The position numbers were made by a program, and so were the translations under genes. The notes beneath the pieces were generated by a model that saw only the letters and a program-made list of their open reading frames with translations, ran no database searches and was not told where the DNA came from. Positions 17,466 to 24,974 of a DNA stretch of 37,307 nt are shown here, in pieces. Positions within the stretch are counted from its first letter, which is position 1. Each line of letters opens with the position of its first letter. The DNA comes from Dysgonomonas sp. Marseille-P4677 (GTDB lineage Bacteria; Bacteroidota; Bacteroidia; Bacteroidales; Dysgonomonadaceae): positions 1 to 37,307 of the forward strand of contig NZ_JAEPKU010000028.1 of NCBI RefSeq assembly GCF_016652235.1, written 5' to 3'.

Positions 17466-18533
17466 TTATCCTTTTATAAAATCTACTATCCAATCACCCA
17501 CTTCAGAAGTTCCGTATGCTTTACCACTAGCTGAAATATCTTCAGTTACTATACCTGCATCCATCGATGCAGCGACCGCATCACGTATAAGTTTACCTTC
17601 ATCGTGCAAGTTAAATGCATATTCAAACATCAGTGCAGCAGAAAGAATCGTAGCTAACGGATTGGCTATATTCTTCCCTGCGGCTTGCGGATATGATCCG
17701 TGTATAGGCTCAAAAACAGACGTATGAATACCAATAGATGCTGACGGAAGCATACCTAATGAACCTGTTATTACAGATGCTTCATCTGTAAGAATATCTC
17801 CGAATAGATTTTCAGTAACAAGTACATCAAAACGTTTAGGCCATTGGATTATCTGCATGGCAGCATTATCTACAAACATATATTCAGTCTCTACATCAGG
17901 ATATTGCTTCTCGATTTCCTGCGCAACCTGTCTCCACAAACGTGATGTACACAATACATTCGCCTTATCCACCACCGTCACTTTCTTACGACGCATGCGG
18001 GCATACTTATAAGAAAGGTGTAAGATGCGTTCTACTTCTTCACGTGTATAAACACATGTATCATAAGCTGTATCGCCATCTTCGCTACGTCCTTGAGGAC
18101 GGCCAAAATAAAGTCCTCCAGTAAGTTCGCGGATACACATAAAATCGGCACCATCTACAAGATCGGCACGCAAAGGTGATTTATGTATTAAAGAAGGGAA
18201 TGTAGAAACTGGACGAATATTTGCATATAATCCTAATTTCTTACGCATAGCCAACAAACCCTGTTCGGGACGAACCTTTGCCGAAGGGTTATTGTCATAT
18301 TTCGGATCACCGATTGCTCCAAAAAGAACAGCATCCGAAGCCATACATAATTCGTGAGTTCCGTCGGGATAAGGATTTCCAACCTCATCGATAGCTGTTG
18401 CACCAACAACCCCGTATTCATAAGAAAGTTCATGCCCGAATTTCTCACAAATAGCTTCTGTTACTCTCAAAGCCTGCCCGATTATTTCGGGACCAATCCC
18501 GTCTCCGGGAAGTACTGCGATGTTTAATTTCAT
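17466..18533 (-). CDS. leuB: 3-isopropylmalate dehydrogenase
   Basis: The 355-residue NAD-dependent enzyme oxidatively decarboxylates 3-isopropylmalate to 2-oxoisocaproate, the third leucine-specific step. Motifs include GDGIGPEI at the N-terminus, the substrate-loop segment [23 protein letters not shown] with the catalytic Lys, DNAAMQII, and the NAD/metal-site run [14 protein letters not shown]. It is the last gene of the leucine operon, 31 bp after the second synthase gene and just before the operon terminator. In organisms with a citramalate pathway the same enzyme also handles 3-methylmalate towards 2-oxobutyrate. That fits its neighbour here. Confidence 0.97.
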
Positions 18534-18564: not shown

Positions 18565-20073
18565 TTACAAATCCTCTATCATATTCAACATCTTTTCGGT
18601 CGCTTTTACTGCGGCTTCAGTCTGGTCGGCGTCTAGACCTCTGGTTTTAAACGTCTTGCCATTAAACTCCCATGTTATAACCGTTTGTACTAATGCATCA
18701 GTACGACCTCCCGGTGGAATAAACACAGCATAATTAGTTAATGTAGGGGTTGGTTTATCCAGTTTCTTATATATTTTATACAATGCTTTGGAAAACGCAT
18801 GGTATTGTCCGTCTCCCGGTGCAGTCCATTCATGTTCCTGACCATCTATTTCTATTTTCACTGTAGCTGTCGGACGCAGACCTTTGGTAAGAACAAAAGC
18901 GAAAGAAAGTATTTTAATTCTCCTTTCTTTTTCGTTATTCTTTAATACATCTGAAATAATATACGGTAAATCATCTTGAGTAATAATTTCTTTTTTATCT
19001 CCAAGCTCAATTACACGGTTGGTTACTTTAGTCATATCCGATTCATCCAATTCGATGCCTAGAGCTTCAATATTCTTCCGTATATTAGACTTACCTGACA
19101 GTTTTCCAAGAGCATATTCTCTCACACGGCCAAAACGTTCCGGAAACAGATCATTAAAATACAGATTATTCTTATTGTCTCCATCAGCATGTATGCCTGC
19201 ACATTGAGTAAAGACATTATCTCCTACAATAGGTTGGTTAGAAGAAATTATTTGTCCCGAATAAGATTCTACGACTCTACTTACTTTATTTATATTCTCT
19301 TCTTTTATAGATGTCTTTAACTTCAATTGATCGTGAAAAACAGCAATTACACTAGCTAAAGACGTATTTCCGGCACGTTCTCCCAATCCATTCATCGTCA
19401 GATGTACTCCTTTAACTCCAACTTCTGCCGCAACCATTGTATTGGCTACAGCCAAATCATAGTCATTGTGTGCATGAAAATCGAAATGAAGTCCAGGATA
19501 ACGATTTATCATTCTACGACAACAGCGCCAAACACTATGAGGGTTCAGAATACCTAAAGTATCGGGGAGCATAAAGCGTTTTATAGGTAGATCTTTGAGA
19601 CCATCCATCATAAAATAGACATAATCTTCTGAGTTGATTATACCATTCGACCAATCTTCCAAATATAAATTTACGGTAATACCCATCTTCTGAGCTAATA
19701 TTACTTCTTCTTTTATATCCTGAAGATGTTGTTCTGGTGTTTTCCGCAATTGTTCAGTAACATGCTTATAAGAACCCTTGGTCAACAAATTAATAACATT
19801 GCAACCTGTGTCCTTAATCCAGTTGAGAGAAGCACCCTTATCTATAAAACCAAGTATTTCTATTTTATCTATATGTCCGGCTGACTTTGCCCATGTAGCA
19901 ATCCTCTTTACAGTCTCAAATTCACCATTCGAAACACGTGCTGAAGCTATCTCAATGCGGTTAACACCAAGTTCTCCAAGAAGCAAATGTGCTATGCTCA
20001 TTTTCTCCTGAGCCGAAAACGAGACGGTTGAAGTCTGTTCCCCATCTCTCAGGGTAGTATCCATTATTTCCAT
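18565..20073 (-). CDS. Second 2-isopropylmalate/citramalate synthase-family enzyme
   Basis: The 502-residue acyl-CoA-condensing HMGL-like TIM barrel is followed by a LeuA-type allosteric domain (about 385-500). The catalytic start DTTLRDGEQ (5-13), the metal-binding HAHND with [11 protein letters not shown] further on, and the GIHADG segment are present. It differs strongly from leuA in the same operon (for example TSTVSFSAQEK in place of [11 protein letters not shown]), so it is not a recent duplicate. Plausible activities are (R)-citramalate synthase (pyruvate + acetyl-CoA, towards isoleucine) or a second isopropylmalate synthase. The Ile-rich leader peptide of the operon favours a link to isoleucine. 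Sequence alone does not settle the substrate, so no symbol is given. It lies 31 bp before leuB. Confidence 0.85.
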   Translation of the reverse strand: MEIMDTTLRDGEQTSTVSFSAQEKMSIAHLLLGELGVNRIEIASARVSNGEFETVKRIATWAKSAGHIDKIEILGFIDKGASLNWIKDTGCNVINLLTKGSYKHVTEQLRKTPEQHLQDIKEEVILAQKMGITVNLYLEDWSNGIINSEDYVYFMMDGLKDLPIKRFMLPDTLGILNPHSVWRCCRRMINRYPGLHFDFHAHNDYDLAVANTMVAAEVGVKGVHLTMNGLGERAGNTSLASVIAVFHDQLKLKTSIKEENINKVSRVVESYSGQIISSNQPIVGDNVFTQCAGIHADGDNKNNLYFNDLFPERFGRVREYALGKLSGKSNIRKNIEALGIELDESDMTKVTNRVIELGDKKEIITQDDLPYIISDVLKNNEKERRIKILSFAFVLTKGLRPTATVKIEIDGQEHEWTAPGDGQYHAFSKALYKIYKKLDKPTPTLTNYAVFIPPGGRTDALVQTVITWEFNGKTFKTRGLDADQTEAAVKATEKMLNMIEDL

Positions 20074-20094: not shown

Positions 20095-21030
20095 TTAATT
20101 AAAAGCAGTTTTAATAAATTCGTTTATTCTGTCTATAAAACATTCAAAATTAAGTGTTATAGGGCCATTCAGACCACCATGATCCGCACCTTCTATTATC
20201 CATATATTTTTTATTATATTTTCGGGTAAAGCATTATATATATCTTCACTCATATATGGCAATGTTCTATCGTCCTTGTCTCCTACAATAAGAAATGTAG
20301 ATTTATTAAAATCAGGAGCTATATAAACAGGCATTTGATGAGACGGAAAGTCTTTAGGAATTATCACTTCTTCATCTTTTTTGTTCTGCACCTTTTTGAT
20401 AATGGGCATTACCTCTTCGAAACTTGAAGGTGTAGCAATACCTATATATGCGCTGACAAAAGAGCTATTGTAAGCTGCTATCATAGACAAATAGCTGCCA
20501 GTAGACCATCCCATCAATCCAATTCTGGAAGTATCGACAACATCTTCTTTAGCAACCTCGTTTATAACAGCATCGTAATCCCACAACATCTCTGTATAAC
20601 ACATATAATTAGTGTCCATATTCCATTCAGAACTTTCTCCAAAATCTCTCCAATCAAAGGTTACTACATTTACACCTAGTTTTGTGATTTCCTGAGCAAG
20701 ATGTAAATGTATCCATGACATATTGCCCGCATCACTGTCACAGATGATTAATGTAGGACGTTTTTCATCATTCAGTAGCTTATATTCTCTCTTCCTATTT
20801 TCAACCCATGCCCTATCTGATTCTTCTTTCGACAAAGCATTTTGGGCTGGAAAGAACCATGTTTTAATTTTTAGATTGTCTTTTGTAATAACATCAAGTT
20901 CTTTATATATTAAACCTAATTTCTCAGGATAGAATCGGTATGTTCTGTCTGGTTTAATTGCTTTTAATAAACAAAACTCGCCAGACAGAATAAGAAATAG
21001 TAATAAAAAGACAACTCTACATTTCATCAC
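20095..21030 (-). CDS. Exported alpha/beta hydrolase inside the leucine operon
   Basis: The 311-residue protein has an N-terminal hydrophobic segment (about 3-24), a signal peptide or anchor. The hydrolase domain is intact: the nucleophile elbow is GWSTG (174-178, Ser176), a likely acid sits in VGDKDDR, and the catalytic His is in GADHGG. It is closest in style to dienelactone/prolyl-oligopeptidase-like alpha/beta hydrolases. It sits 12 bp after leuD and 21 bp before the second synthase gene, so it must be co-transcribed with leucine genes despite being exported. As I recall the leucine loci of other Bacteroidales, leuD is followed directly by the synthase, so this looks like an insertion. 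No role in leucine synthesis is evident. Confidence 0.8.
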   Translation of the reverse strand: MMKCRVVFLLLFLILSGEFCLLKAIKPDRTYRFYPEKLGLIYKELDVITKDNLKIKTWFFPAQNALSKEESDRAWVENRKREYKLLNDEKRPTLIICDSDAGNMSWIHLHLAQEITKLGVNVVTFDWRDFGESSEWNMDTNYMCYTEMLWDYDAVINEVAKEDVVDTSRIGLMGWSTGSYLSMIAAYNSSFVSAYIGIATPSSFEEVMPIIKKVQNKKDEEVIIPKDFPSHQMPVYIAPDFNKSTFLIVGDKDDRTLPYMSEDIYNALPENIIKNIWIIEGADHGGLNGPITLNFECFIDRINEFIKTAFN

Positions 21031-21042
21031 AGAATAGATATT

Positions 21043-21633
21043 TCAAATGACAGAATTGGCCTCGTATTTTTCTGTCAAATCTTTTTTAGAGAGTAGATAA
21101 TCGATATCATCAAGACCTTTCATCAAGCATTCCTTTTTGTAAGGATTGATCTCAAAATCTTCCGATTTTCCAGTTGCATTATTTGTTATAGTCTGTTTGT
21201 CCAGATCGATAGTTAATGTCGTTTTAGAATCAGTCTCTACACAAGCAAAGAGCTCTGATAAAAATTCGGGTGTAACAACAACCGGGAGTACCCCGTTATT
21301 CAGAGAGTTATTTCTAAAAATATCAGCAAAAAAGCTTGATACTACAGCCTTAAATCCATAACCAGCCACAGCCCAAGCCGCATGTTCACGACTCGATCCG
21401 CTTCCGAAATTCTTTCCGGCTACTAGTATTTGACCACTATAAGTCGGATTATTTAGTACAAAATCAGCTTTGGGGCTACCATCTTTATTATAACGCCAAT
21501 CAGCAAAAAGGTTATCACCAAAGCCTTCCTTATCAGTAGCTTTCAGGAAACGAGCAGGTATAATCTGATCTGTGTCCACATTCTCGATAGGAAGTGGAAC
21601 GTATGTTGATGTAAGTGTTTGAAATTTTTCCAT
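21043..21633 (-). CDS. leuD: 3-isopropylmalate dehydratase small subunit
   Basis: The 196-residue swivel-domain subunit pairs with LeuC to form isopropylmalate isomerase. Hallmarks are VDTDQIIPARFLK near the N-terminus and GKNFGSGSSREHAAWA, the substrate-binding loop. Length is normal for the family. It starts 20 bp after the leuC stop. The same heterodimer can isomerise citramalate, so it could serve both synthases of the operon. Confidence 0.97.
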   Translation of the reverse strand: MEKFQTLTSTYVPLPIENVDTDQIIPARFLKATDKEGFGDNLFADWRYNKDGSPKADFVLNNPTYSGQILVAGKNFGSGSSREHAAWAVAGYGFKAVVSSFFADIFRNNSLNNGVLPVVVTPEFLSELFACVETDSKTTLTIDLDKQTITNNATGKSEDFEINPYKKECLMKGLDDIDYLLSKKDLTEKYEANSVI

Positions 21634-21653: not shown

Positions 21654-23045
21654 TTAGAAATTGCGAGGATCAGTAATTTTACCTGTAACGGCTGCCGCAG
21701 CGGCCACTAATGGTCCTGCCAATATAGTGCGTGCACCTGGTCCCTGACGACCTTCGAAATTACGGTTAGAGGTAGAAACGGCGTATTTACCTGCCGGAAC
21801 TTTATCGTCGTTCATTGCTAAACAAGCTGAACATCCAGGTTGACGTAGTTCAAAGCCTGCATCAGTCAAAATCTGATCTATACCTTCTGCTTTGATCTGA
21901 TCTACAACCATGTGGCTACCCGGTACAAGCCAAGCAATTACATTATCAGCTTTTTTCTTTCCTTTTACAAAGTTCGCAAAAGTCCGGAAATCCTCAATAC
22001 GACCATTAGTACAACTGCCTAAGAAAACATAGTCAATTTGCTTTCCTTCAACTTTTTCTCCAGGTTTGAATCCCATATAATCCATTGATTTCTGGAAAGA
22101 GATACGTCCGGCCTCATCTATTTGCTCTAAAGTAGGAATTGCATCATTAATACCCATACCCATTCCCGGATTTGTACCATATGTTATCATTGGTTTAATA
22201 TCGGCTGCGTCGAAAGTTAGTTCTTTATCGAATTTAGCACCATCATCAGTCTTCAATGTTTTCCAATAAGCCAGTGCTTTATCCCATTCTTCTCCTTTCG
22301 GAGCAAACTCACGACCTTTGACGTATGTAAATGTAGTTTCGTCCGGAGCAACAAGTCCTCCACGAGCACCCATTTCGATACTCAAGTTACACAAGGTCAT
22401 ACGCTCCTCCATCGACATATTACGAATTGCCTCACCTGCATATTCTACAAAATAACCAGTTGCGCCTCCCGTTGTCAATTTAGAAATCATATACAAAGCC
22501 AAATCTTTTGCAGTAACACTTTCACCCAATTTGCCGTTGAAAGTAATACGCATTGTTTTGGGACGAGTTTGTAATATACACTGAGTAGCTAGTACCATCT
22601 CTACTTCGCTGGTACCGATACCAAAGGCAATAGCACCAAAGGCACCGTGTGTAGAAGTATGGCTATCGCCACAAACAATGGTCATACCTGGTTGGGTAAA
22701 TCCATTTTCAGGGCCTATGATATGAACAACGCCATTCTTCTTATTACCCAAGGCATATAATGTAAGCCCGAAATCGCTTGCATTTTTAGATAATGTGTCT
22801 AGCTGATTCCTTGAAACAGGGTCTTTTACCGGTTGATCCTGATTGATAGTCGGTGTATTATGGTCGGCTGTCAATGTAGTCTTATCGGGACGATATACTT
22901 TTAATCCACGAGCACGAAGTCCGTTAAAAGCTTGCGGACTGGTCACCTCGTGACAGAAATGACGGTCTATATATAATTGTGTAGGACCGTTTTCTACAGA
23001 TGATACCACATGGGCATCCCAGATTTTGTCGAATAAAGTTTTCAT
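21654..23045 (-). CDS. leuC: 3-isopropylmalate dehydratase large subunit
   Basis: The 463-residue aconitase-family subunit binds a [4Fe-4S] cluster. The three cluster cysteines are in LGSCTNGR and in [10 protein letters not shown] (CxxC). [15 protein letters not shown] and the C-terminal [17 protein letters not shown] match the family. It works with LeuD on 2-isopropylmalate, and probably on citramalate here. It lies 31 bp after leuA in the operon. No anomalies. Confidence 0.97.
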
Positions 23046-23076: not shown

Positions 23077-24567
23077 TTACTTTACAAATTTATTCACTGC
23101 GTTTATAAAAGCTTCCGCCGAGGCAGCGACTATATCTGTATTGGCCGAAAAACCATAATAATTGACGCCCTCGTGTTCTACTTGCATATGTACTTTACCT
23201 ATATCATCACTACCACGATTGATAGCTTGAATCAAGAATTCTTCTATTACTGTCTGACGACGTATAATTTGCTTTATTGCTGAAATAGCAGCATCTACCG
23301 GTCCATTTCCCGATGCCGAAGCCTCAAATTTCTCCCCTGCGATATCTAAACCTACATTTGCCACATTGCGTACGCCCAAACCGGAAATAACCTGTAGATA
23401 ATCCAACTTGATACGATGCATTTTATCGGTTTCCTTACCTGCCAAAATTAAGATATCTTCATCAGTAATATCTTTTTTACGATCTGCTAGCTCTAGAAAA
23501 CGCTGATATAACTCGGCCAGTTTATCCTCATCAACCTCTATTCCTAATAAATTTAATCTATTTTTCAAAGCAGCCCGACCACTACGTGCCGTTAGTACAA
23601 TAGCATTATCATCAATTCCCACATCCTTAGGATCAATAATTTCGTATGTTGAAAGATTCTTCAAAACACCATCCTGATGAATACCTGATGAATGAGCGAA
23701 TGCGTTACGTCCAACAATAGCCTTATTAGGTTGTACCGGCATATTCATCAAACTAGATATCATACGGCTTACAGGATAAATTTTCTGAGTATTGATATTT
23801 GTTTCAATATCCAATTCTGTATGGCTTCTGATAGCCATAACCACTTCTTCCAGCGATGTATTCCCTGCGCGTTCGCCAATACCATTTATTGTCACCTCAA
23901 CCTGACGTGCTCCGTTCAACACTCCCATTATTGAGTTTGCAGTAGCCATACCCAAATCCTGATGACAATGTGTAGACAAAATAGCATTTTTCATATCCAC
24001 ATTATCTATCAAGTATTTGATTTTAGCTCCATACTCGGTTGGTAAACAATAACCTGTAGTATCAGGTATATTTACTACAGTAGCGCCTGCATTTACTACA
24101 GCCTGTACGACCCGTGCTAAATAAGCATTATCGGTACGACCTGCATCTTCTGCATAAAATTCTACATCTTCTACAAAACGTTTTGCATATTTGACTGCAG
24201 CGATAGCACGTTCTACAATTTCGTCTTGATTGGAATTGAATTTATGTTTAATATGGAACTCTGAAGTTCCAATACCTGTATGTATACGTTTCTTCTTTGC
24301 ATATTTCAGAGCTTCAGCCGCTACTTCAATATCCTTTTCTACTGCACGTGTCAAAGCACATATAGTTGGCCAAGTTACAGCTTTAGATATTTCAACAACC
24401 GAATTGAAGTCTCCTGGGCTAGACACAGGAAAACCAGCTTCAATTACGTCAACACCGAGTGATTCGAGAGCTTTAGCTACTTCTATTTTTTCGATTGTAT
24501 TCAATTGGCAACCGGGTACTTGCTCTCCGTCTCTCAATGTGGTGTCAAAAATAAATAACTTGTCCAT
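23077..24567 (-). CDS. leuA: 2-isopropylmalate synthase
   Basis: The 496-residue enzyme condenses acetyl-CoA with 2-oxoisovalerate in the first committed step of leucine synthesis. Visible are [13 protein letters not shown] at the N-terminus (catalytic Arg and metal Asp), HCHQDLGMA (metal His pair) and [14 protein letters not shown]. The C-terminal regulatory domain for leucine feedback spans about 390-496. It is the first structural gene of the operon. Its ATG lies 44 nt downstream of an attenuator hairpin, so its expression should depend on translation of the leader peptide. Confidence 0.96.
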
Positions 24568-24611
24568 AACTTTACTTTTCTAATTGAATTTCTAAATTGT
24601 TTGCATTACAT

Positions 24612-24651
24612 AAAAAAAGCCTTTCTCATCTATTCAAAAGTGAGAAAGGCT
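24612..24651 (-). terminator. Attenuator terminator of the leucine operon
   Basis: A perfect 11-bp stem (24651-24641 with 24628-24618, AGCCTTTCTCA/TGAGAAAGGCT) and a 12-nt loop are followed by seven U in the RNA (A7 at 24612-24618 on the plus strand). It lies between the leader ORF and leuA, upstream of all structural genes, so it can only act as a conditional terminator. Its 5' arm can instead pair with the end of the leader ORF. Confidence 0.92.
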
Positions 24652-24707
24652 CTAGTTTTTTCTTTATTATATTTATACTACATAGCAATGCTCACCCTAA
24701 ATTTCTC
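24642..24707 (-). promoter_or_regulatory. Antiterminator pairing of the leu leader
   Basis: In the RNA, GAGAAA (24707-24702, inside the last leader codons) plus GG (24697-24696) can pair with CC (24649-24648) and UUUCUC (24647-24642) of the terminator 5' arm, with a 4-nt bulge. This excludes the terminator. It is the 2:3 structure of classical attenuation. Confidence 0.6.
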
Positions 24708-24726
24708 CAGAGGATAATGAGTGAAC
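24690..24726 (-). promoter_or_regulatory. Protector hairpin of the leu leader
   Basis: In the RNA, GUUCACUC (24726-24719) can pair over 8 bp (two G-U pairs) with GGGUGAGC (24697-24690). This hairpin sequesters the upstream arm of the antiterminator and would favour termination. A ribosome stalled at the Ile triplet just before it would block it. Confidence 0.55.
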
Positions 24727-24763
24727 TAATAATAATACTGCTATATACTGACATAATTTCCAT
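24692..24763 (-). CDS. leuL: Leucine-operon leader peptide (23 codons)
   Basis: A short ORF starts at ATG 24763, shortly downstream of the leu promoter, and ends at TGA 24692-24694. Ten of its 23 residues are branched-chain: Ile at 3, 10, 11, 12, 16 and 17, Leu at 15, 18 and 22, and Val at 6. The central run reads SSIIISSLIIL. Two of the Leu codons are CTC, unusual for such AT-rich DNA. Its end overlaps both the protector and antiterminator RNA arms, and the attenuator terminator follows 40 nt later. The peptide itself is expected to have no function; stalling of the ribosome on Ile/Leu codons when charged tRNA is scarce would let the operon be transcribed. The symbol follows the enterobacterial name by analogy; homology is not claimed. 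Confidence 0.8.
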   Translation of the reverse strand: MEIMSVYSSIIISSLIILWRNLG

Positions 24764-24776
24764 TTTTTATGTTTGA

Positions 24777-24807
24777 CAAAGTTATTTCATTTTTTCACAA
24801 ATACAAA
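24777..24807 (-). promoter_or_regulatory. Promoter of the leucine operon
   Basis: On the minus strand TTTG (24807-24804) and TAACTTTG (24784-24777) are separated by 19 nt, matching the Bacteroidota TTTG-N19-21-TAnnTTTG promoter at both elements. Transcription should start near 24771, only a few nucleotides before the leader peptide ATG at 24763. Confidence 0.8.
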
Positions 24808-24974
24808 TAAAAAGATCATTTTTTTCGATAGTTAATGGCAATTTTAGATTTTAGATATCAAGCTAAAAAAGAAAATGACAGATCGTAAATGATTATTCTA
24901 AAAATTTGCTCTTTATGTTTAAAAATATATCTTTACTGTTCCTTAAATATTTTAACATTAATATAAAACAACAA

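Follow-up and report, generated by a model that had tools for sequence, protein, structure and literature searches.

A predicted leader-peptide attenuator upstream of the combined leucine/isoleucine operon of Dysgonomonas sp. Marseille-P4677

The leu operon and its leader region

The window, by which we mean the whole 37,307-nucleotide stretch of DNA analysed here (contig G000:C190 in our set of own-genome contigs), contains leuA, leuC, leuD, a hydrolase gene, a cimA-like gene and leuB in one minus-strand row (Table 1). Between leuD and the cimA-like gene lies a gene for an alpha/beta hydrolase. The cimA-like gene itself scored 646 bits with the CimA family NF042433, which is below the family cut-off of 950. 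LeuA is at least 91% identical in five genome contigs, four of them named Dysgonomonas and one Prevotella sp. A second LeuA match of the cimA-like type (29–34% identity) lies on the leuA contig in at least 56 of 80 LeuA-matching genomes. A model search of the host genome for threonine deaminase gave no match above the cut-off, the top match being cysK and the next trpB.

Upstream of leuA the initial annotation had placed a promoter, a 23-codon ORF with 6 Ile, 3 Leu and 1 Val codons, and a terminator ending in U7, and each of these was recovered at the positions given in Table 1. The promoter motif is also found upstream in 27 of the 28 leaders kept from loci L001–L030, against 9 of 4000 random 120-nt windows of the contig. 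The leader ORF was found exactly as described; it has an alternative in-frame start at 24754, and its stop codon lies 124 nt from leuA. Taken as a single sequence the ORF is only moderately surprising, since an ATG ORF of at least 18 codons that is equally rich in Ile, Leu and Val arose in 24 of 2000 sequences made by dinucleotide shuffling of this leader; the relatives have to decide. The RNA from 24771 to 24612 folds at -41.5 kcal/mol (z = -4.3), and none of 200 dinucleotide shuffles was equally stable.

The isoleucine codons of the leader fit the operon, in which a cimA-like gene is present, and the genome, in which threonine deaminase was not found by that search. In the citramalate route the same LeuCD and LeuB enzymes can serve both leucine and isoleucine synthesis, and because of this a mixed Ile/Leu sensor suits the operon. 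Such a combined sensor would represent a regulatory logic matched to the citramalate route of isoleucine synthesis.

Table 1. Positions of the genes and predicted regulatory features of the window, and of further leaders discussed in the text
Feature	Position	Strand	Basis
Promoter, Bacteroidota-type, TTTG-N19-TAACTTTG	24777..24807	-	motif at these positions
Leader peptide ORF, MEIMSVYSSIIISSLIILWRNLG then stop	24692..24763	-	23 codons; ORF conserved in relatives
Ile codons 10–12 (ATT ATT ATT), predicted main stall site	24728..24736	-	folding model
Second control run, codons 15–18, Leu-Ile-Ile-Leu	24710..24721	-	codon composition of 75 leaders
Outer protector stem, 5' arm AUAUAGCAGU	24737..24746	-	MFE; swap test on 76 leaders
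Outer protector stem, 3' arm AUUGCUAUGU	24680..24689	-	MFE; swap test on 76 leaders
Inner protector stem, 5' arm GUUCACUC	24719..24726	-	90.7% of cells paired, 26 close relatives
Inner protector stem, 3' arm GGGUGAGC	24690..24697	-	90.7% of cells paired, 26 close relatives
Antiterminator 5' strand AGGGUGAG, holds leader stop codon UGA	24691..24698	-	conserved pairing, covariation
Antiterminator 3' strand CUCACUUU, overlaps terminator 5' arm	24637..24644	-	conserved pairing, covariation
Terminator stem, 5' arm (core)	24641..24650	-	96.4% of cells paired, 76 sequences
Terminator stem, 3' arm (core)	24619..24628	-	same 76-sequence pairing
Terminator U7 run	24612..24618	-	read in sequence
leuA, 2-isopropylmalate synthase	23077..24567	-	NF002086 719 bits, TIGR00973 652 bits, both above cut-off
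leuC	21654..23045	-	TIGR00170 above cut-off
leuD	21043..21633	-	TIGR00171 above cut-off
Alpha/beta hydrolase	20095..21030	-	Pfam Peptidase_S9 and Abhydrolase_1 above cut-off
Citramalate-synthase-like gene (isoleucine entry enzyme)	18565..20073	-	best family NF042433 CimA
leuB	17466..18533	-	TIGR00169 above cut-off
ilvD leader MTNCFLHVLILNILLVGLNK (Val/Leu/Ile), L128	G000:C274:12095-12234		own genome, terminator follows
hisG leader ...NKAHHHHLLLLPKGE (HHHH), L140	G000:C244		own genome, terminator follows
pheA (prephenate-dehydratase gene) leader MKNFSYTYFFFFYFYFFRR (Phe/Tyr run), L151	G000:C66		own genome, terminator follows
Bacteroid-trp element leader ...MSFLLTNTFWWWHSQLKKS (WWW), beside trpB, L268	G000:C113:36665-36797		terminator follows
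Tandem loci L270–L272	G789:C68:23721-24069, G727:C26:16048-16345, G658:C429:632-906		
Tandem loci L273–L274	G698:C25:18244-18548, G734:C140:6258-6550		

Conservation of the leader and its helices

The comparative sample comprised 110 leuA loci, 30 from whole genomes and 80 from genome contigs; once five duplicates, recognised by their last 200 nt, are removed, 105 distinct upstream regions remain. A leader was scored where the scan found a terminator preceded by an ATG ORF of 10–50 codons with at least 30% Ile, Leu and Val. Where several ORFs qualified the richest in these residues was kept, and the shuffled control was given equal freedom. A terminator was present in 89 of the 105 regions, and 76 of these 89 also have an ORF rich in branched-chain amino acid (BCAA) codons, compared with a mean of 22.9 and a maximum of 35 in 40 sets of shuffles of the 89 segments. 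Under a stricter rule (at least 17 codons, at least 35%) 66 were observed against a shuffled mean of 6.4 (maximum 14). The window and its relatives thus share a short ORF with a cognate codon cluster (76 of 105 regions) followed by an intrinsic-type terminator before leuA, as had been predicted from the window. Among the names carried by the 76 are Proteiniphilum, Bacteroides, Phocaeicola, Parabacteroides, Tannerella, Candidatus Azobacteroides and Apibacter.

The remaining 29 regions fail the filter, 16 lacking a terminator by the scan and 13 having one. Some failures have technical causes: L027, L065 and L079 run into the end of a contig, and the ORF of L003 opens further upstream. The scan found no BCAA leader with terminator upstream of leuA in L084, L096, L097, L104, L106 and L108 (Muribaculaceae, Duncaniella, Paramuribaculum), nor in L083, L093, L101, L107 and L109 (Prevotellaceae or Prevotella). 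In the Muribaculaceae and several Prevotellaceae loci the attenuator has apparently been lost or replaced. Terminator-like hairpins were seen by eye upstream of leuA in L106 and L109. In a metagenome-assembled genome named Tannerella sp. a tRNA-Glu(CTC) gene (L049:2808-2880) occupies the place upstream of leuA where the leader would be and directly precedes a terminator-like hairpin; a second tRNA-Glu(TTC) lies at 2353-2425.

LeuA matches were found in 232 of 296 genomes, and 40 upstream regions were hand-picked, non-randomly, from the better-scoring rows. Both regions from the same order have a leader directly upstream of leuA; none was seen there in the 38 from outside the order (33 of the same class, 5 of the same phylum).

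Alignment of the 76 leaders identified the conserved antiterminator as AGGGUGAG paired with CUCACUUU, with 91.8% of cells paired. Its covariation was 0.276 compared with a shuffled value of 0.165 (sd 0.009; 0/500) and 0.032–0.109 for versions slid along the sequence, values which, like all our covariation counts, are inflated by the relatedness of the sequences. Two of five covariation measures were not above the shuffles, namely pairs changed on both sides (4 versus 3.0; 156/500) and further pair types (11 versus 9.9; 79/500). Variants of the helix include GGAAGUGAG/CUCACUUCC in L067 (Bacteroides), GGGUGAG/CUCACCC in L046 (Proteiniphilum) and GAAGCGAG/CUCGCUUC in L043 and L055. A swap test, which involves no pairwise arm alignment and permutes partners across clades, so that independent events are uncounted, gave energies of -12.36 kcal/mol for the antiterminator with its own partner and -10.01 kcal/mol with swapped partners (0/5000 permutations, n = 76). 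The corresponding values for the outer protector stem were -9.84 and -7.15 kcal/mol (0/5000, n = 76). Antiterminator and terminator are mutually exclusive, as nucleotides 24644-24641 are common to both.

The initial annotation had drawn a different antiterminator, GAGAAA plus GG (24707-24696) with CCUUUCUC (24649-24642), and an alternative is that the mechanism is right and this helix is the functional one, at least in the genus. Its arms do exist in the window, and GGAGAAAUUU is frequent among close relatives, an observation that is neutral because the pairs are constant there. Over the 76 leaders GAGAAA/UUUCUC is paired in 70.0% of cells, and its covariation of 0.135 is close to the shuffled mean of 0.130 (33/500) and below the slid control (0.147). 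Forced into the pre-terminator transcript it is also weaker than AGGGUGAG/CUCACUUU (-12.7 versus -14.6 kcal/mol). We therefore reject it as the conserved antiterminator and regard it as unlikely to be the functional one; it may act as a local helper in the genus.

The protector hairpin proposed earlier, 24726-24719 with 24697-24690, was present and proved incomplete, since an outer stem (24746-24737/24689-24680) encloses it. In the MFE structure the protector is predicted to exclude the antiterminator. In a 26-row alignment of the genus and family only 64.9% of the cells of the outer arm are paired, and pairs in which both partners differ show no excess over shuffles (181/500); shifts in the register of the arm account for part of this. 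Protector covariation is thus weak among the 26 closest leaders. The proposal nevertheless survives the comparative checks set by the initial annotation, a BCAA-codon ORF being kept ahead of the terminator in relatives and the pairings holding through sequence change. Overall, the architecture of the leu leader is kept while its sequence drifts.

Codon geometry, proposed mechanism and alternatives

In 68 of the 76 leaders the last pair of BCAA codons ends 13–17 nt before GUGAG. Like the window, 40 of the 76 have their stop codon within GUGAG; in the others the stop falls 3–6 nt before GUGAG (10), 5–18 nt after it (25) or is misassigned (1). We modelled a stalled ribosome as a mask with an assumed footprint, -15 to +12 relative to the first A-site base, and computed the probability of the antiterminator at every codon of 75 leaders (L073 dropped), kinetics being ignored. 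With the A site 27–21 nt before GUGAG the share of Ile, Leu and Val is 97–99% and the modelled probability 0.77–0.82; at 18 nt the values are 64% and 0.70, at 15 nt 5% and 0.46, and at 12 nt the probability is 0.03. The control codons thus give out at the point beyond which a stalled ribosome would begin to mask the antiterminator strand.

The model also agrees with the earlier proposal that a stall at Ile codons 10–12 would free the antiterminator of the window, the modelled probability being 0.92–0.94 there, 0.66–0.79 at codons 15–16, 0.13–0.15 at codons 17–18 and 0.00 at the stop codon. Ribosomes at the control codons are thus predicted to open the protector and leave the antiterminator strand free. 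Mean antiterminator occupancy in 73 leaders (L052, L054 and L073 dropped by a spacing filter) was 0.19 without a ribosome, rose to 0.71 when one was placed on the last BCAA pair and was 0.00 when it stood on the stop codon. In this set the modelled probability is at most 0.5 at the last BCAA pair in 22 leaders and exceeds 0.5 even without a ribosome in 13; some Ile, Leu or Val codon gives a value above 0.5 in 69 of the 75 leaders.

From these data we propose, with a probability of about 0.93 and on the basis of sequence comparison and modelling, that the leuA leader is a ribosome-mediated transcription attenuator of the classical type, as the initial annotation had suggested: the BCAA ORF and terminator recur in relatives, the pairings are conserved and the codon geometry fits. 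RNA polymerase would initiate a short way past 24777, and a ribosome would translate the leader ORF while the polymerase proceeds. When Ile- and Leu-tRNA are charged, the ribosome is expected to reach the stop codon and cover the antiterminator strand that contains it; if it is released or absent, the outer and inner protector stems would sequester the 5' strand. With the strand covered or sequestered, the terminator and its U7 run would form and leuA remain untranscribed. A shortage of either amino acid would stall the ribosome on codons 10–12 or 15–16, opening the protector and leaving AGGGUGAG free to pair with CUCACUUU, so that no terminator would form and readthrough into leuA would rise. 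On this model leucine and isoleucine synthesis should be switched on only when the ribosomes lack enough of these amino acids.

Leaders with other cognate codons occur in the same genome upstream of ilvD, hisG and pheA and beside trpB (Table 1), and their composition follows the pathway. His makes up 25% of his leaders (7 of 10 loci, the other three having no terminator by the scan), Phe and Tyr 56% of phe leaders (9 of 9 loci), and Trp 15% of trp leaders (8 loci of 26 matches). Val accounts for 12% of ilv leaders (15 of 16 loci, the ORF being picked for its resemblance) versus 3% of leu leaders (26 of the 28 from L001–L030). Leu alone does not discriminate, because trp and his leaders are also 17–19% Leu. 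R1, a covariance model built from leuA leaders alone, reported two matches in this genome, the leuA and ilvD leaders.

It is improbable, somewhat more so than the genus-specific helix discussed above, that the leader ORF acts otherwise, with the ribosome altering Rho access, mRNA stability or leuA re-initiation and the hairpin serving as a processing or 3'-end site. Other kinds of uORF control are known and the leader stop lies within 124 nt of leuA; such control predicts neither the competing, covarying antiterminator and terminator helices nor the spacing from codons to antiterminator, and the hairpin carries a terminal U7 run, as intrinsic terminators do.

A tRNA- or metabolite-binding RNA, with the leader ORF incidental, is very improbable. 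BCAA operons in other phyla use T-boxes, but no Rfam 15 family reached its gathering score in the window, Leu_leader (which we take to be RF00512) included, and no T-box family appeared even at E-values up to 10 in 24400-24950. PyrR, at 25.1 bits (cut-off 54), and Bacteroid-trp, at 21.4 bits (cut-off 49), fell far short. Moreover, the cognate codon runs change with the pathway within one genome, against either a T-box or a riboswitch.

We consider it scarcely credible that the ORF is fortuitous and the terminator an ordinary one belonging to an upstream transcript. The AT-richness of the region and the 24 of 2000 shuffles yielding such an ORF might be cited in favour; the leuA upstream regions (76 of 89 against 22.9) and the codon positions fixed relative to GUGAG contradict it.

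Spread of the leaders and comparison with known systems

RNA-model genome searches over 40 genomes were run with strict filters and few candidates scored per genome. With these filters R1 matched at E ≤ 0.001 in 67 of the 198 sampled genomes of the order and in 34 of the 296 of the class. Sixteen matches from the class search were inspected. Five (L250–L252, L254 and L255) precede aspartokinase genes, whose best match is bifunctional aspartokinase/homoserine dehydrogenase I, and have Thr/Ile leaders such as MTTNNTIIITIITTGINLGGR with a terminator. Four precede ilvE-type genes, two of which are under the family cut-off, two precede ilvB and two ilvD; for one the gene was not identified, and one looks false.

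L263 (G404:C39:25875-26009), the last of the sixteen, has the leader MKAKKSNMKMMNNGMCCCCAFLWRG, in which four codons specify Cys, followed by a terminator; the downstream gene is sulfite/nitrite-reductase-like, with matches under the cut-off. This leader is a candidate cysteine attenuator, judged from its sequence. L258 (G406:C37:47644-47765) has the leader MNTKNNNIIVVVVSSLG and a terminator between ilvD and ilvB, apparently internal to the operon. No leader was seen in 12 of 13 upstream regions of ilvD from 12 genomes of the class, several of these regions being apparently operon-internal. In L196, from the same order, a leader-like ORF (..HIIRVVVV.., by eye) and a terminator lie upstream of ilvD.

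Five genomes of the order carry two consecutive R1 matches ahead of ilvD, ilvB or ilvE, each match with its own BCAA leader, for example MRNLNNIILSIIIILVVVIP then MNTTLIIIVVVIILILIRT. Four of the five have both terminators and, in each unit, pairing between the leader end and a terminator arm, a pairing counted without a control. In L273 the scan finds the first terminator only. Tandem attenuators are reported for Salmonella mgtCBR (PMC3641672).

We lean towards the view that the Bacteroidia possess a class-wide, nearly complete set of attenuators (leu, ilvD, ilvB, ilvE, thr, his, trp, phe and perhaps cys), in some genomes with two complete BCAA attenuators in series. If they act as proposed, the first ribosome must advance together with RNA polymerase over the 5' end of each such operon, in a phylum whose translation starts are described as lacking Shine-Dalgarno sequences. 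As attenuation needs translation to keep pace with transcription, the leaders would be a natural reporter of coupling in Bacteroidota.

Vitreschak et al. 2004 (FEMS Microbiol Lett) reportedly may name Bacteroidetes/Chlorobi among candidates. A 2013 survey limited to Rfam motifs considered that amino acid attenuators might be gamma-proteobacterial in origin with few transfers (PMC3766115); in the present data one genome of another phylum has leu, ilv, his, trp and phe leaders with pathway-matched codons. Our literature search, with few subscription journals within reach and some sources accessible in part, found no paper on a leu attenuator in Bacteroidota. Small ORFs reminiscent of leader peptides are reported from the transcriptome of B. 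thetaiotaomicron, with no leu example in the accessible text (PMC7366714).

The initial annotation knew of no described example in this group, a claim that does not stand, since Bacteroid-trp (RF01692) and Flavobacterium psychrophilum already provide examples within the phylum. The former, which Rfam describes as 'Bacteroidete tryptophan peptide leader RNA', is entered as a probable cis-regulatory element in the accessible part of Weinberg et al. 2010 (PMC2864571), and its match in the present genome scores 50.8 bits against a cut-off of 49. The leu leader resembles it in phylum and in combining a leader peptide with a terminator and differs in operon and codons; at 21.4 bits it is not a member. 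In F. psychrophilum strong clues to leader-peptide attenuation upstream of amino acid operons are reported, and 5' elements upstream of pheA and hisG are conserved in Flavobacteriaceae; the accessible account names no leu operon and gives no base-pairing anatomy (PMC9723704).

The principle of attenuation is textbook knowledge and examples from the phylum are known; the leu leader matches no Rfam family at cut-off. Some of our loci presumably come from insect-gut Bacteroidota. Termite-leu (RF01730), of which the accessible source gives a name suggesting leu genes (PMC2864571), was considered as the same element and gave no match in the window, in 20 loci chosen from the 110 (cut-off 51) or in 61 relatives, a weak test in which no positive control matched either.

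In its working the leu leader would resemble the classical attenuators: it too has an ORF with cognate codons, mutually exclusive protector, antiterminator and terminator, and a cognate biosynthetic operon. Such leader-peptide attenuators govern the enterobacterial leu, ilv, his, thr, trp and phe operons. Unlike these, the leu leader has a Bacteroidota promoter, a two-tier protector, a stop codon which in the window lies inside the antiterminator strand, a start taken as a premise to lack a Shine-Dalgarno sequence, and mixed Ile and Leu codons suiting an operon that joins leu genes with a citramalate-synthase-like gene.
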